From: Candidatus Avelusimicrobium aviculae
GTDB lineage: Bacteria; Elusimicrobiota; Elusimicrobia; Elusimicrobiales; Elusimicrobiaceae
Direction of reading: 5' to 3'
Length of the DNA: 32,962 nucleotides
Assembly (NCBI GenBank): GCA_944324655.1
Contig: CALUXF010000019.1
Location: forward strand, 1 to 32,962
Shown here: in pieces, positions 2,417 through 32,962 of the stretch
Position numbering within the stretch: position 1 is the first letter of the stretch
Layout: each line of letters begins with the position of its first letter
Position numbers and translations under genes: made by a program
The notes under the pieces: generated by a model
Told to the model about the DNA's origin: nothing
Databases searched by the model: none
The model's input: the letters and a program-made list of their open reading frames with translations, nothing else

Positions 2417-5400
2417 CTATTTTTTAACGCCTATCAAAGCGTAACCTTCGCAATTTCCGTCCGCGTCTTTTACGGCAAAGGCGTCCCAGTCGGTAGAAAC
2501 ATAGGTTTCATCTTCTGTTTGCAAATCCATACGAAGCCTAAACGCCTTGGCCGAGCCGTCTTGCGACGCCGCCTTAAATGCCGCGCGCGTGGAGGCCGGC
2601 TTGTGTATAAAGCGGTCAAAAAACTCCATTTTTACCGGCACCCGGCAACCAGTAGCCTCTATAAAGGCCGCGTTGGCGGAACGAATGCGGTAATCCAGCC
2701 CAATCATAACGGCAGGGAAGTCCATATAATCCAAGGTGCGCGTTAAACTTTGGGAAGTCTCGCTCACTGCTTTACCGGCCTGGCGCAATTCTATGCGCAA
2801 GCTCAGCATACGCGCCATTAACCCTATAAGCTCCTCGGCACCCGGCTCAAAAGAGCGCCGCGCCTGCCGGGACGCAAAACACAACGCTCCCGCCGGTTTA
2901 CCCGCCACACAAATGGGGGCCGCAATAAGGGCGGAAAATTCTTTGCGTTTATGCACGCAGCGGGTACAAGAAGTATTTCCTAAATCCGGGAACAGGGCTA
3001 CATTGTCATCTAATACATCTTGCAGGCATTCCTCAATAGGGAAATCCATATACCGCTGGATATTAAAATCATTTTGGGTTACATACACCACGCTCATCTC
3101 CGCCGCGCCGGAGTCCGCAAAGCGGACCACCATGCCCACTTCCGCCTTAAATACACGCTGCCCAAAGGCCAGTATTTTGTCTACCCATTCGGTAATAGAA
3201 AGATTGGGTTGGTGGCTGATGTCGTACAATTCACGCACGCGCCCATCCTGCTCTTGCTTTTCGCTTACGTCTTTAATCCAAATGACGGCCTCGTCCCGCC
3301 CGGTGATGGGGGTGACGGTAGCCTCGTAGGAGAACACATGCCCATTTTCACTTAATGTAAAATCAAAATGCGTGGTAATATTGATGGACAGCGCCTCTTT
3401 AATAGCGAACAATTCTTTGGAGGCCACTTCCTCCGGCCAATAGTCTGCCGGCACTTTGCCCACAAACCGCTGGGCCGCCTGTTTATTGGTTAAATAATCT
3501 AAGTTAGAATATACTTCCAATACCAGGCCGTTGTTATCCGTCTTCAAATAGATCCCGGGCAGCGCCTGGCGCACGCTGCGCAGCTCCTGCGCCTGCTGGG
3601 AATCCTGCGCCAGTTTATCCAACTGGGTAGAAATATCCCGCACCACAACCAGGGCTGTACCGTGGGAGGCAAAATCTAAAGGAACCATCGTAATTTCCGC
3701 ATTAAAGCGGGTCCCGTCTTTACGGAATACGCTGGCGGAAAAATTCAGTCTTCCCTCTTGAAAGAACTGCGCTTCCAACCCTTGCAGCCACTGCAGTGTT
3801 TTAGCGGAAGGGCGTTCCCCCGGTTTTACAAACAGGTCTTTAAATTGCAGACGCACCAGCTCATCGTGCGTATACTCCAACATTTTAGACAAAAACTTAT
3901 TGGCTTGCTCCACCCGGCCAAAAGAACCTTTTTGAGCTTCTATAGAGAAAACCACTCCGTCCGTAGCGTCCAACAAAGCGTTTAACTGGGCGGAACGTTC
4001 CTCTAAAATTTTCATAATCTGCCGGTGAAACGCCAAATTGCGAAGCACAAATAAATAACTTCCGTCCGCTTCTTTAAAAGCATTTAAGCGCACGGCCACC
4101 GTTTCCAAACTATTGGATAAACGCAAATTATATTCCCGGTTATCCAAATCGCCTTCCGCAGACAAAGAACCCAAATCTTCCCGCAAAGAAGCGGCGCTGT
4201 CTTCGTCAAATAAGCTGAAAAGGCCCTTGCCCAGCAATTCGTTTTGGTCCAGCTGGCATAAAGAGCAGAACAAATCATTGCATTGCGTAATCTTAAATAA
4301 CGTATTACACACGGCATAGGGTTCCGTTTTAGGCAACATGATTTTTGCCGAAACAGGCGGCGCCGGCGGGCAAAGCGGGTTACGTAAAGCTTGGGCGGCC
4401 AAAGAAGCATCCACCCCGGCGTTTTTTTTCTTTCTAATCACCCGGCGGGCGGTACCCGAAGTATGCCCTTTCCCCGCGGGAGGAAGCGGAGCCTTTGGCG
4501 CAGCGGGCGGAACGGCCAAACTCACCTGCTGTTTAGGCACCAAATACACCACATAATCCGCTTCTACGCTGCCGTCTTTGGTATCCCGGCGGTTGATAGG
4601 CTCAAAAGTAACATCTAAATGTATTTGGCCTTCCCCGTCAATACGGCCGGGAAATTTATTTTTTGCTTTTTCAAAATCAAAGACATATTCCATGGTGGCG
4701 CTGTTTCCTTGGCGAAGCTCTTTGCGAACGGACAGCGTCATGGCGGGTTTTAAATACACGTTGCGATAAAAGTTTTTATCTTCCGCCCCGAAATGGAATA
4801 ACTCCCGGCAGGAACGGTTCATTACCGTAATATAACCCTTGCTGTTCATTACCAACGCCGGGATAACGGCGCTTTCAAAGGCGGCGCGGAAATTTTCCCG
4901 TTCGGTTTTCAGGTCCCGCAATACACGGTTGGAGGAAGTAACGTCCCGAATAAAACAAATGACAATTCTTCTTCCTAAATAGCGTGACGCCATGGCGGCA
5001 AATTCCGTTTCCACACGGTGCCCGTCCGGCCGGATAAAATGCACTTCAATAGAAGACTGGGCGTCTCCTATATTATTTAAAATGGCTTCATAATGTTCCT
5101 GCACAAAAATCTTATGGTCTTGGGATACCATATCCAACAACACCCGCTGCTGCATGTCTTCTTCTAAAGAAAAACCCAATATATGAGCGGCGGCCCGGTT
5201 GGAATAAATAATTTTTCCGTCTTCCAATATAACAATACCCTCCCGGGCATTTTCCAACAATAAGGTGTTCTTGTCATTGGCCTCGCGGATTTGTTTTTCC
5301 ATTTTTGTTTTGGCCGTGATATCCTCAGACACCATGAGCAAGTAATCGGGCGTTCCGTCCGGCAAAAACACGGGAGTCTTTACCGTATGCATGATTTTTA

Positions 5401-7549
5401 CACCCTCATTAGCGGTGGAAATAAGTTCCTGCGGAACATTTAATTCTTTTCCGCTTTCAAATACTTTCTGGTCCGCTGAGGCTAAAAACTCGGCCTGTTC
5501 GGGCGTAATGTCTTGCCGGTAATGGTTTTTTCCTATCACTTCGGCAGATTGGGCCCCAAAAAGGCTTTCGCTCTTTTTATTCCATAAAATATATTTTCCC
5601 TCATAATTTTTAACGGAAAGAGCCAACGGCAAGTTATCTATTACCGTTTGCAGGAAGTTGCGTGTTTTAATGACTTCCTGTTCCTGTTGTTTCTTTTCGG
5701 TAATATCCTCAGCCAGCGTGAGCATCATAAAAGGGTTGCCTTTCTGGTCATACACGGGAACTTTAATCAAGTGCAAAAGTACTTTGCTGCCGCGGCGGGT
5801 GGTATACCACTCGGCAGGGATATCCAACACTTTCCCTTCGGCGAAGATAGCTTTCTCGCGTTTACCGTAAAAGTTGTTTTCTTCCTTATATTCCGTCTCA
5901 TCCAAGAAAATTTCGTGCGCTTTTTTATTAATAAAAAACATTTTGTTGTTCACGCCGCGGGCGTAAATAGCCAAAGGCGCGTTATCCAACACCGCTTGGC
6001 GGAAGTTGTGCGCTTCGGCCAAGCGGATTTCCTGTTCTTTCTTTTCCGTAATATCCTCGGCCAGCGTCAAAACGAAATTTAACTGGTTTACCTCATCCTT
6101 AACGGGAACCTTAATTAAGTGAAAAAGCTTATGTTTTCCATCCGCAGCCACATATTTTTCCTCTGGAATATCTAAGGTTTTCCCTGTTGTTAAAATGGAA
6201 AATTCTCTTCCTAAATAAGAGGCAACGTCTTCCTTGCTTTCATGCGGAAGGGCGCCGTTGGAAGCAAAAGACTGGGCATCCATTTTGCCAAACATGCTGG
6301 TGCAGCTTTTATTGCGCAGCAACATGTGCCCATCGCTCGCCCGGGCATACAAACCAATCGGCGCGTTATCTACAATGGCTTGCAACAACTTATTCATGCG
6401 CACAATTTCTTTTTCCTGCTTGCGGCGCTCGGTAACATCCTCCGCTATAGACAAAACCATAGGTTCCGGCCCGGTTTTGGTAAGAGGGACCTTAATCATA
6501 TGAATAATGCGCGTGTTGCCGGCCCGGTCCACATATACTTCATCGGGATATTCCTGCACTTTTCCGGTACGTAAAATTTCTTGTTCCCGGTCGTGGTAGG
6601 CGTCAATCAATTCACGGGTTTGTTTAGCATGGGGAGAATTGGCAAAACGGGGCTGCACTTCATTAAAAATTACTTGGCTTTGTTTATTAAAAAACGTCAT
6701 GCGGCGGTCCGCCGTGCGGGTATACAATCCCACCGGAACGTTATCTACTATGGCCTGCAGCAAATTGCGCATTTGAACGGTTTCCTGCTCCTCACTCAGG
6801 CGGTTGGTAATATCCTCGTACACGGTTAGAATATAAGCCATTTCTCCGGTGGGGGCGGAAGCCGGCACTTTGCTGACGCACAAGGTTCTTTCCTTGCCGG
6901 CGGCGTCTACAAAACGCATATGAGCGTTTGCGCGCGCTTTGCCGGAATCCTTTACTTCCTGGTCCATCACTTCTAAAGAATTTAAAATAGCCGCAGGCAG
7001 AAAAGGATACACTTCCTTGCCAAGCAACTCAGAAGCGGGATGACCAAATAATTCTTCGGCCTTTTTATTCCACAGGCAACATTCTTCTTTCAAATTTTGC
7101 ACGCTTACGGCAAAGGGGTATTGGTCCACCACATTGCGCAAGAAACACCGTTCCTCCTCCGCGCTTGCCAGTGCGGAAGTTTCTTCTAACGTTAATAAAC
7201 CATATCCCCCGTATACACTGGCCCCTAGCGTGACTTTTCTTTTCTGTGATTTTTGGTCTGTTATTTCTTTTAAAATTTTAGAACCTGTTTTTCCGGTCAA
7301 TAAAGAAATAACATCTTTTCCGCTTAGGCCAAAATCCGCCATATTTCCGCCTTCAAAAGGTTTTTTGACCCCTTTCAACAATAACCCCGCCAACGAATTG
7401 GCAAAAGCAATATGTCCCTTACCATCTACCAGCAAAGCCGCCAAGGGTAAACGTTCCATAAAAAATAAAACACCGCGGGTAAAACCTTCAGGCTGGGAGG
7501 AGGCATTTTCCTCCGGTTCAGAAAATAAGGCGTATAAATTTTTGGTCAT
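2417..7549 (-). CDS. Giant cytosolic multi-PAS/GAF protein with no output domain
   Basis: 1710 residues, no signal peptide or membrane segment. I count about twelve PAS-type units: roughly 25-125, 134-255, 262-380, 387-505, 515-622, 632-755, 764-880, 887-1005, then a Pro/Ala/Lys-rich linker (1007-1070), 1072-1185, 1188-1315, 1325-1435. A GAF domain follows (about 1440-1590), then a last PAS (1600-1710). Units 2-6 share QA(I/V)xDNxP near the start and a closing (S/A)EDIT-type PAC motif joined by coiled-coil-like linkers. I see no histidine kinase H-box or ATPase, and no GGDEF, EAL, HTH, PP2C or cyclase motif. Family knowledge: PAS and GAF domains bind ligands or cofactors and dimerise. The output here is probably in trans, or the protein is a scaffold. 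GGGGAA precedes the ATG. It is divergent from the secreted Cys-rich genes. Confidence 0.85.
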   Translation of the reverse strand: MTKNLYALFSEPEENASSQPEGFTRGVLFFMERLPLAALLVDGKGHIAFANSLAGLLLKGVKKPFEGGNMADFGLSGKDVISLLTGKTGSKILKEITDQKSQKRKVTLGASVYGGYGLLTLEETSALASAEEERCFLRNVVDQYPFAVSVQNLKEECCLWNKKAEELFGHPASELLGKEVYPFLPAAILNSLEVMDQEVKDSGKARANAHMRFVDAAGKERTLCVSKVPASAPTGEMAYILTVYEDITNRLSEEQETVQMRNLLQAIVDNVPVGLYTRTADRRMTFFNKQSQVIFNEVQPRFANSPHAKQTRELIDAYHDREQEILRTGKVQEYPDEVYVDRAGNTRIIHMIKVPLTKTGPEPMVLSIAEDVTERRKQEKEIVRMNKLLQAIVDNAPIGLYARASDGHMLLRNKSCTSMFGKMDAQSFASNGALPHESKEDVASYLGREFSILTTGKTLDIPEEKYVAADGKHKLFHLIKVPVKDEVNQLNFVLTLAEDITEKKEQEIRLAEAHNFRQAVLDNAPLAIYARGVNNKMFFINKKAHEIFLDETEYKEENNFYGKREKAIFAEGKVLDIPAEWYTTRRGSKVLLHLIKVPVYDQKGNPFMMLTLAEDITEKKQQEQEVIKTRNFLQTVIDNLPLALSVKNYEGKYILWNKKSESLFGAQSAEVIGKNHYRQDITPEQAEFLASADQKVFESGKELNVPQELISTANEGVKIMHTVKTPVFLPDGTPDYLLMVSEDITAKTKMEKQIREANDKNTLLLENAREGIVILEDGKIIYSNRAAAHILGFSLEEDMQQRVLLDMVSQDHKIFVQEHYEAILNNIGDAQSSIEVHFIRPDGHRVETEFAAMASRYLGRRIVICFIRDVTSSNRVLRDLKTERENFRAAFESAVIPALVMNSKGYITVMNRSCRELFHFGAEDKNFYRNVYLKPAMTLSVRKELRQGNSATMEYVFDFEKAKNKFPGRIDGEGQIHLDVTFEPINRRDTKDGSVEADYVVYLVPKQQVSLAVPPAAPKAPLPPAGKGHTSGTARRVIRKKKNAGVDASLAAQALRNPLCPPAPPVSAKIMLPKTEPYAVCNTLFKITQCNDLFCSLCQLDQNELLGKGLFSLFDEDSAASLREDLGSLSAEGDLDNREYNLRLSNSLETVAVRLNAFKEADGSYLFVLRNLAFHRQIMKILEERSAQLNALLDATDGVVFSIEAQKGSFGRVEQANKFLSKMLEYTHDELVRLQFKDLFVKPGERPSAKTLQWLQGLEAQFFQEGRLNFSASVFRKDGTRFNAEITMVPLDFASHGTALVVVRDISTQLDKLAQDSQQAQELRSVRQALPGIYLKTDNNGLVLEVYSNLDYLTNKQAAQRFVGKVPADYWPEEVASKELFAIKEALSINITTHFDFTLSENGHVFSYEATVTPITGRDEAVIWIKDVSEKQEQDGRVRELYDISHQPNLSITEWVDKILAFGQRVFKAEVGMVVRFADSGAAEMSVVYVTQNDFNIQRYMDFPIEECLQDVLDDNVALFPDLGNTSCTRCVHKRKEFSALIAAPICVAGKPAGALCFASRQARRSFEPGAEELIGLMARMLSLRIELRQAGKAVSETSQSLTRTLDYMDFPAVMIGLDYRIRSANAAFIEATGCRVPVKMEFFDRFIHKPASTRAAFKAASQDGSAKAFRLRMDLQTEDETYVSTDWDAFAVKDADGNCEGYALIGVKK

Positions 7550-30892: not shown

Positions 30893-32440
30893 CTATTTAT
30901 CCGTTACATAATGACAGCCGATAGACTGCGGGTTTTTTAACGCCGCGTAGGTAATTAACAAGGCCGTCTGCACGCCGTTACGCAAGTCCAGCAATTCCTG
31001 GCACAATGAATTGCCTTTATAGAAAGAGTCAATTTCATTATGCAAGTGGCGCAATATTTTTTCCGCACGGCTTAAATGGGTGCGGCTGCGCATCAACCCC
31101 ACGTAATTCCACATGGTGCTTTTAAGGGTGGCCAAATCTTGCTTTACCAGGTTAATATCCGGTGTTTCCCGCGGGATGACCCATTCCTTAGGCTGGGGTA
31201 AACAGAACGTTTGAGAAGCGATGTCCTTGGCGTCTTCCTGCGCGCACAAGTAACCCATGCCCACCGCCTCCAATAAAGAGGTGCTGGCCAAACGGTTAGC
31301 GCCGTGGTAGCCCGTGCAGGCCGTTTCCCCAATGGCGTTTAAATTTAAAATATTGGTGCGGCCTTGGGGCGTAGCGTAAACCCCCCCGCAAAAATAGTGG
31401 GCGGCCGGAACCACGGGAATAGGTTCTTTAGTTAAATCCACCCCGCCTTCCAAACATTTTTTGTAAATGGCCGGGAAGCGGTTTTTGGTAAACTCCGCCG
31501 GTTCATGCGAAATATCCAAATACACGCAATCATGCGAAGTTTTTAGCCGTTCTTCCTCTATGGCGCGGGCCACGATGTCGCGCGGGGCCAAGTCTTTGAG
31601 TTCATGATAACGGGGCATGAACGCTTCCCCGTTTACGTTACGCAGAACAGCGCCCTCCCCGCGGAGCGCCTCAGAAATTAAAAAGTTTTTGCCTTTGGCA
31701 AATACCGTGGGGTGAAATTGCACAAATTCCATATTCATCACGCGCGCCCCCACACGGTACGCCATCGCCACGCCATGCCCATACGCATGGGTGGAATTGG
31801 TGGTATGGCGGTACACCTGCCCTATCCCGCCGGTGGCCAAAACGGTTTTCTTGGCCACAATGGCGTATACCTCGCCGCTTTGGTTATCCAGCACGTAAGC
31901 GCCAAACACGGTAAGCGGGTGGTAACGGTCCAAAATATTGGTGGAAGAGTGGGATAAGGTTAATAAATCAATGGCGGAAGTATATTCTTTAATGGTAATA
32001 AGCGGGTTTTGCGTTACCGCTTTTTGAATGGCCGTAAGCAAAGCGTGCCCGGTGGTGTCTTTGGAATAAATAATGCGGTTCTTGCGGTGCGCGCCCTCAC
32101 GCGTAAAGCAAAGGTTGCCTTTTTCGTCCCGGTCAAAATTGGCGGGGGCTTCTTTTAAAAAAATCTCTTTAACCGCTTGGCAGCCGGCTGTGGAAAGCGT
32201 GCGGACGGCTTCATCATTACATAAATGGGCGGTAGCCATTTGTACGTCTTCCAGCAAATCCTGCATAACCAAGTTGGGTTCGTACACAATACCGCCCTGG
32301 GCCAAATCACTGTTTGCGTCAGACAAAGGGCCGCAGCACAGCATAATGGTACGCAGGCCTTTTTTGGCGGCCTGGTGCGCATATACACAGCCCGCCACAC
32401 CGGCGCCTATAACTAAACAATCCGTTGTTATTGTTTTCAT
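30893..32440 (-). CDS. nadB: L-aspartate oxidase
   Basis: 515 residues. FAD enzyme making iminoaspartate from aspartate for NAD synthesis; in anaerobes fumarate can replace oxygen as acceptor. Seen: the dinucleotide fold VIGAGVAGCVYA (10-21), the NSDLAQGGI flavin segment (43-51), HRKNRIIYSKDTTGHAL, the active-site QFHPT and EALRGEGAVLRN motifs, and ACTGYHGANRLASTSLLEA near the C-terminal part of the FAD domain. The C-terminal helical domain carries MWNYVGLMRS. NadB versus succinate dehydrogenase/FrdA is decided by these C-terminal motifs. No nadA or nadC is in the window. No SD; a TATAAT is six bases upstream of the ATG. Confidence 0.92.
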   Translation of the reverse strand: MKTITTDCLVIGAGVAGCVYAHQAAKKGLRTIMLCCGPLSDANSDLAQGGIVYEPNLVMQDLLEDVQMATAHLCNDEAVRTLSTAGCQAVKEIFLKEAPANFDRDEKGNLCFTREGAHRKNRIIYSKDTTGHALLTAIQKAVTQNPLITIKEYTSAIDLLTLSHSSTNILDRYHPLTVFGAYVLDNQSGEVYAIVAKKTVLATGGIGQVYRHTTNSTHAYGHGVAMAYRVGARVMNMEFVQFHPTVFAKGKNFLISEALRGEGAVLRNVNGEAFMPRYHELKDLAPRDIVARAIEEERLKTSHDCVYLDISHEPAEFTKNRFPAIYKKCLEGGVDLTKEPIPVVPAAHYFCGGVYATPQGRTNILNLNAIGETACTGYHGANRLASTSLLEAVGMGYLCAQEDAKDIASQTFCLPQPKEWVIPRETPDINLVKQDLATLKSTMWNYVGLMRSRTHLSRAEKILRHLHNEIDSFYKGNSLCQELLDLRNGVQTALLITYAALKNPQSIGCHYVTDK

Positions 32441-32452: not shown

Positions 32453-32525
32453 TATAAATTAAAATCCCGCAACAGAAAAATGACTTGCTTTTTTGTTTTT
32501 ATTTTATTATTATATATGCCCCCTT

Positions 32526-32555
32526 TTTACAAATGTATATAAAATTTGATATAAT
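32526..32555 (+). promoter_or_regulatory. Strong promoter of the small-peptide unit
   Basis: TTTACA (32526-32531), 18 bases, then TATAAT (32550-32555). Predicted start near 32562, with a leader of about 72 bases. Confidence 0.65.
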
Positions 32556-32570
32556 TTTTATGTAAGAAAA

Positions 32571-32625
32571 TTCTCCTGTGCCTGAAAAGACGCAGAACGA
32601 TTTTTAAAAAGGAAAAATAGGAGAA
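32571..32625 (+). promoter_or_regulatory. Leader able to sequester the ribosome-binding site
   Basis: TTCTCCT (32571-32577) is perfectly complementary to AGGAGAA (32619-32625), which contains the SD of the following ORF. Between them CTGTG and CGCAG can form an inner stem. The predicted structure would keep translation off until opened by a ligand, RNA, protein or temperature. Confidence 0.5.
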
Positions 32626-32633
32626 ACAAGAAA

Positions 32634-32735
32634 ATGAAAAGAATGAACAACATCTTGGAAGCTGTAGCCAAAGCGTTGGTGAAAGTGGGCGAAAACGTAA
32701 GCGGCGCCAACTACATCACCTCCCGCCACGACTAA
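32634..32735 (+). CDS. 33-residue small peptide of unknown function
   Basis: ATG at 32634 with AGGAG about ten bases upstream. The product starts MKRMNNILEAVAKALVKVG, which would form an amphipathic helix, and ends GANYITSRHD. It lacks Cys and a signal peptide. The layout (short amphipathic leader plus a polar core) recalls AgrD-type signal precursors or membrane-active peptides, but there is no direct homology I can claim. After TAA the same frame stays open for 20 more codons (32736-32795, including KESLKSKQF and GQIPPADR) before TGA. It has its own promoter and terminator; a neighbouring processing gene might lie beyond the window. Confidence 0.5.
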   Translation: MKRMNNILEAVAKALVKVGENVSGANYITSRHD

Positions 32736-32788
32736 TCCAAAGAATCGTTGAAAAGTAAGCAGTTTGAAGCCGGCCAGATACCCCCGGC

Positions 32789-32820
32789 GGACAGGTGAGA
32801 AGATCTTTCTTCCCCTGTCT
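32789..32820 (+). other. Hairpin in the 3' part of the small-peptide transcript
   Basis: GACAGG and CCTGTC bracket an imperfect inner stem (GAGAAGA with TCTTTCTTC), overlapping the end of the in-frame continuation. No T-run follows, so it is not a terminator. Confidence 0.4.
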
Positions 32821-32853
32821 AAAACAGCCGAAAACAATTTGAAACATTACTTG

Positions 32854-32883
32854 AAACGCGGCCCGAAAGCCGCGTTTATTTTT
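32854..32883 (+). terminator. Terminator of the small-peptide unit
   Basis: AAACGCGG pairs with CCGCGTTT around an eight-base loop and is followed by ATTTTT. It fixes a predicted transcript of about 320 bases. Confidence 0.8.
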
Positions 32884-32894
32884 GGCATGAAACT

Positions 32895-32957
32895 CCCCGG
32901 GCTTACGCCCGGGGTTTCTTTCTATACGAACAATTTCATTGTTCGCCCCAAATCTTC
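32895..32957. repeat. Right copy of the hairpin repeat
   Basis: Perfect hairpin CCCCGGGC-TTAC-GCCCGGGG (32895-32914) then TTT; a second perfect hairpin CGAACAAT-TTC-ATTGTTCG (32927-32945); then CCCCAAATCTTC (32946-32957), the reverse complement of 8-19. It lies five bases from the window end. Confidence 0.55.
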
Positions 32958-32962
32958 TTTTC

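Follow-up and report, generated by a model that had tools for sequence, protein, structure and literature searches.

An unannotated small-protein gene with a leader predicted to pair with the Shine-Dalgarno sequence and a structured 3′ region in one genus of gut Elusimicrobiota

A small-protein gene in Elusimicrobiota

The right end of a contig of Candidatus Avelusimicrobium aviculae, a genome of 1.62 Mb assembled in 53 contigs, contains an unannotated small-protein gene (positions 32526–32883) that, judged by sequence comparison, is almost certainly real. Its products constitute a new, previously undescribed family of proteins of 28–34 residues from one genus of gut Elusimicrobiota. Coordinates refer to the window, the whole stretch of 32,962 nt that was analysed. 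A preliminary description of this DNA had proposed a complete unit composed of a promoter, a leader blocking the Shine-Dalgarno (SD) sequence, an open reading frame (ORF), a structured 3′ region and a terminator; all these parts were confirmed in position and are conserved in relatives. Annotation of such short genes is difficult when only a single genome is considered, and almost no members of the group have been cultured.

The ORF is conserved and under purifying selection

The ORF (32634–32735, plus strand) comprises 33 codons and encodes MKRMNNILEAVAKALVKVGENVSGANYITSRHD. Of the 37 genomes of the genus that were first searched with the peptide, 19 contained a homologue; the order's remaining genera yielded none. 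A combination of covariance-model, nadB-flank and profile searches raised the count to 38 of 66 same-genus genomes, with homologues found in no other genus. True matches among these 66 genomes were separated from the remaining ones by a wide gap in E-values (≤2.4e-15 versus ≥0.08). Additionally, when about 85,000 species genomes were scanned, 29 loci were returned; where the title was informative it named an Elusimicrobiota assembly, in almost every case an uncultured one, and the rest were titled only "uncultured bacterium". Five carriers overlooked by the first searches were found through their nadB flanks (loci L160, L166, L170, L155 and L163 of genomes G074, G081, G075, G089 and G085, respectively). 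Conversely, covariance-model matches in genomes G023, G003, G201 and G037 were discarded as false, there being no homologous ORF at those places.

Each of the 32 fully read loci has a frame open from ATG to stop, over 28–34 codons, and start, stop and SD are kept without exception. Pooling nine close pairs, we counted 55 changes in 169 synonymous sites and 21 in 668 nonsynonymous sites, giving a pN/pS of 0.096, and pN was lower than pS in 493 of 496 pairs. The small gene is therefore, in addition to being single copy and syntenic, slowly evolving and under strong purifying selection. Invariant profile positions, numbered on the window peptide, are A12, G19, N21, G24 and Y27, and the conserved segment reads G-[E/D/A]-N-[V/I]-x-G-[A/S]-[H/N]-Y. 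The peptide had no credible Pfam, NCBIfam or PDB-profile match, and literature searches turned up no account of a gene of this kind in Elusimicrobiota. The structured nature of the transcript could suggest that the frame is a chance ORF within a non-coding RNA, a reading that deserves hardly any credence and is already contradicted by the low pN/pS, by a frame that is open in every carrier, and by the persistence of the ORF where the 3′ structure is missing (see below).

A helix is predicted for residues 3–32 with a mean pLDDT of 73, values being high only over about residues 11–20 and the model being weak in the C-terminal half. In agreement with the amphipathic ORF first described, the hydrophobic moment of the window peptide was matched by only 0.7% of shuffles, and an amphipathic helix was also obtained for most of the members tested. 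Transmembrane segments are absent from the family (19-residue windows reach a mean hydropathy of 0.25–1.09 at best; GRAVY from −0.45 to 0.26), and its profile has no conserved Cys or double-Gly. An N-terminal amphipathic helix followed by a short polar tail recalls, in outline only, the precursors of secreted or processed signal peptides, such as those of the agr kind, one of the functions contemplated initially. We regard this function as very unlikely, given the lack of those conserved residues, the lack of any NCBIfam or Pfam match beyond chance, the AgrD profile included, and the lack of a credible PDB match. Likewise, AgrB was found in none of the 66 genomes, in a search whose control set responded in just a single genome, scoring under the cut-off, and no transporter, peptidase or kinase is linked to the gene in relatives.

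Genomic context and inheritance

The gene nadB (L-aspartate oxidase, named from its sequence; 30893–32440, minus strand) lies outside the unit and is its divergent neighbour in nearly all carriers, having been recognised upstream in 31 of 32 loci; the divergent arrangement occurs in the 18 relatives whose flanks were read. In genome G084, about 3 kb separate the small gene from nadB. On the 3′ side, wherever the contigs of the same 18 relatives extend far enough, the near neighbour is in most cases encoded on the opposite strand and is most frequently pilin-like, and none of the relatives with flanks read has a same-strand downstream gene close enough for a shared transcript; the unit is a monocistronic gene. 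A leader peptide controlling a downstream gene was considered and rejected, because in relatives the gene close by on the 3′ side is transcribed towards the unit. The search for an adjacent peptidase or transporter, suggested in the preliminary description, was also negative in the relatives with flanks read.

We compared the distribution of the gene with a nadB tree of 60 species, on which carrier state required 4 changes, versus 18.5 in shuffles. This pattern fits a gene that would be ancestral to the genus and would then have been lost in about four clades. In non-carriers, the unit is cleanly absent from the nadB flank, and other sequence is found directly beside nadB; on visual inspection this is mostly the terminal part of a different gene together with its terminator. 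The small-gene loci of G089 and G085 (L155 and L163) are nearly identical and their nadB proteins clearly differ (branches of 0.08 and 0.10), a mismatch that may reflect recombination, transfer or a binning error.

The unit occupies the right end of its contig, and the sequence from 32887 onward recurs at 15 contig ends of this genome, the present end among them. A copy of this repeat in another genome encodes an IS200-like transposase (PF01797, E 3e-20; Y1 transposase family). The right edge of the window, from 32887 on, is thus the end of an IS200-like transposon and lies outside the unit, and the repeated element likely caused the assembly break at this place. Both ends of the window (32887–32962 and about 34–59) are ends of this repeated element, and the copy adjoining the small gene begins right behind its terminator. 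A hairpin at 32895–32914, considered as part of the unit, was assigned to this neighbouring element and rejected. Elsewhere in the window, positions 2417–7549 on the minus strand contain an ORF of 1710 residues with repeated sensor-like segments, PAS-type by eye. A search for tRNA and tmRNA genes found nothing at the unit and only a tRNA-Leu elsewhere, and a search of a phage collection gave no match.

Promoters and a leader predicted to pair with the Shine-Dalgarno sequence

The main promoter (32526–32555, plus strand), TTTACA-18-TATAAT with a TG before the −10, matches the consensus in 11 of 12 positions, as befits the strong promoter previously noted, and transcription would start near 32562. 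A tandem promoter-like element lies upstream on the same strand (32485–32513), consisting of TTGCTT (32485–32490), 17 nt and TATTAT (32508–32513). Such a second element with TTGC, about 40 nt upstream, is present in 25 of the 32 homologous loci, compared with 0.8 expected from shuffling.

The plus-strand leader contains an anti-SD, TTCTCCT (32571–32577), complementary to the SD region AGGAGAA (32619–32625, with the SD AGGAG at 32619–32623). The seven Watson–Crick pairs so formed are equalled in 0.75% of dinucleotide shuffles of the leader, and in the ensemble predicted for the window sequence the SD is about 99% paired. The exact pairing of leader and SD reported before was hence corroborated, except that it begins some 10 nt past the inferred transcription start and not at the first bases of the RNA. 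At least six contiguous Watson–Crick pairs between leader and SD region occur in 25 of 32 loci, and in 22 of the 32 the SD is less than 30% open when folding of the full-length RNA is predicted. Both features whose conservation the preliminary description had proposed to examine in relatives, the ORF and the leader pairing, are therefore conserved. The pairing is missing from five species (G014, G012, G066, G007 and G021), which form one supported clade of the nadB tree and whose SD region is AGGAGGA. In one group of loci the anti-SD sits within a GATAAG/CTTATC hairpin, and predicted folding leaves the SD mostly open in G024 and G064. Covariation cannot prove the pairing between SD and anti-SD, because the SD core is invariant. 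Together, these predictions suggest that the leader probably restrains translation in most species.

Type I toxin mRNAs characteristically hide their SD by means of an anti-SD located close by (PMC6733600), raising the possibility, already entertained in the preliminary description, that the peptide is a membrane toxin and the sequestering leader keeps its primary transcript inert. The SD is predicted to be occluded in the primary transcript of 25 of 32 loci, this occlusion being lost in one clade, and the size and amphipathic helix of the peptide fit a toxin loosely. Nevertheless, we consider a type I toxin–antitoxin system decidedly unlikely, since the peptide is not hydrophobic and has no transmembrane window; antisense promoter-like sites appear in only three of 32 loci, with no place common to all and none in the other 29; and the gene is single copy, clade-inherited and slowly evolving.

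A three-way junction in the 3′ region

Downstream of the ORF, the plus strand can form a three-way junction (32759–32828), with a closing helix (32759–32765 with 32822–32828), a second helix (32769–32773 with 32784–32788) and a long hairpin (32790–32819). It is followed by an intrinsic terminator with its T run (32854–32883, the terminator itself spanning 32854–32877). The whole RNA is predicted to be more stable than its shuffles (z of −2.67), in keeping with the structured 3′ region and terminator of the preliminary description.

Carriers were modelled separately as clades A and B, as a joint MAFFT alignment misplaced the second helix between them. Both clades have two adjacent hairpins inside a short closing helix, built from different sequences: GCCGG/CCGGC and GACAGG/CCTGTC in one clade, and GCCAAG/CTTGGC and GACGGG/CCCGTC in the other. 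Among the seven sequences of clade B, changes on both sides were observed in 8 of 28 pairs, a value reached by none of 500 shuffles, and slid structures performed worse; clade A is nearly invariant and gives little covariation information. A further alignment, in which one row (L086) is in reverse-strand orientation, was left out of this covariation result. From this comparison, the 3′ module is very probably a selected RNA structure. It gives one strong match per genome, and searches of Rfam (E up to 10) produced chance matches only, none at gathering score. In the non-carrier G023, a hairpin at an unrelated place with no ORF (L089:300–400; GACGGGAAGGAA...TTCCTTTCCCGTC) resembles the long hairpin of the module.

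Of the 37 carriers inspected on the 3′ side, 34 have the junction. The three others (G089, G085 and G075) retain promoter, leader, ORF and terminator, and no genome was seen with the module and no ORF. Because these three carriers keep the ORF without the junction, the peptide is the conserved core of the unit and the RNA module an accessory, a description that may understate the role of the junction, given its strong conservation where present.

A regulatory RNA, the third function initially proposed, survives in part, as a possible second activity of the 3′ module. The transcript would then be a dual-function RNA, encoding the peptide and using its junction either to regulate in trans or to sense a ligand or protein. 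Covariation within clade B, the presence of the single-copy junction in most carriers, and a long hairpin whose sequence is partly common to both clades are consistent with this proposal, as is the selection acting on the ORF, which would be translated. However, the junction is missing from three species that have the ORF, its unpaired positions are not the same in clade A as in clade B, leaving no visible conserved seed or ligand pocket, and it belongs to no Rfam family at gathering score. Furthermore, Hfq was not detected in the 66 genomes of the genus with a search that was positive in five known control genomes. As Hfq is undetected and the unpaired positions are unconserved, a classical trans-acting sRNA is less likely, albeit not impossible, and we hold a dual function in general as possible but doubtful. 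One specific version, in a genus with no detectable Hfq, is that SD occlusion chooses between the peptide and an independent sensing or regulating 3′ module, lineages having separately dropped either the leader switch or the module; this appears fairly unlikely. If the dual-RNA reading were true, these separate lineage losses would represent a natural dissection of a dual RNA.

Proposed mechanism and comparison with known systems

Our best guess, partly by analogy, is that the unit is an mRNA whose translation is throttled and whose product is a small helix, either soluble or binding to a surface. A short mRNA would be made from one or two housekeeping-type promoters, and its 5′ anti-SD would fold onto the SD once both are transcribed, keeping translation low until a ribosome, an RNase, a protein or stress opens the block. 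The 3′ junction could shield the 3′ end or dock a protein. The product would be a cytosolic amphipathic helix acting in trans, the likeliest mode being binding to a single protein partner or to the membrane surface, a step proposed by analogy with VcdP of Vibrio cholerae, a small protein that binds a protein partner, citrate synthase (PMC8672173). Whether the small protein works through a cellular partner, and not as a toxin or signal, seems to us evenly balanced. Comparative genomics settles the reality of the gene, not its partner. Some natural variants lack the leader switch and others the 3′ RNA module, making the role of each part directly testable.

RNAIII of Staphylococcus aureus, a structured RNA of over 500 nt from the agr locus with C-rich target-pairing loops, encodes delta-haemolysin, a small peptide that forms an amphipathic helix. 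The Elusimicrobiota unit is similar in its amphipathic helical peptide and structured RNA, but has neither that length nor the C-rich target-pairing loops or an agr locus. SR1/SR1P of Bacillus subtilis and SgrS of Gram-negative species are also small RNAs encoding a small protein, with a peptide and RNA architecture that differs from that of the unit. Both appear as dual RNAs in one source (PMC8672173), and SR1P and GapA are named in the title of another (PMC8152036). In the type I toxin mRNA of the aapA/IsoA system of Helicobacter pylori, an upstream anti-SD hides the SD (PMC6733600), as predicted here, whereas our unit has no conserved antisense promoter, no long-distance lock between its 5′ and 3′ ends is evident, and its peptide family is unrelated as far as tested. 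VcdRP of V. cholerae is a dual-function RNA: its protein, VcdP, binds citrate synthase, its RNA, VcdR, pairs with targets, and the paper lists Hfq among its keywords (PMC8672173). Unlike VcdRP, the Elusimicrobiota unit has no detected Hfq or conserved seed, and its 3′ module is missing from some carriers; the two are alike in being short transcripts that encode a small protein of roughly 30 residues, VcdP having 29 (PMC8672173).
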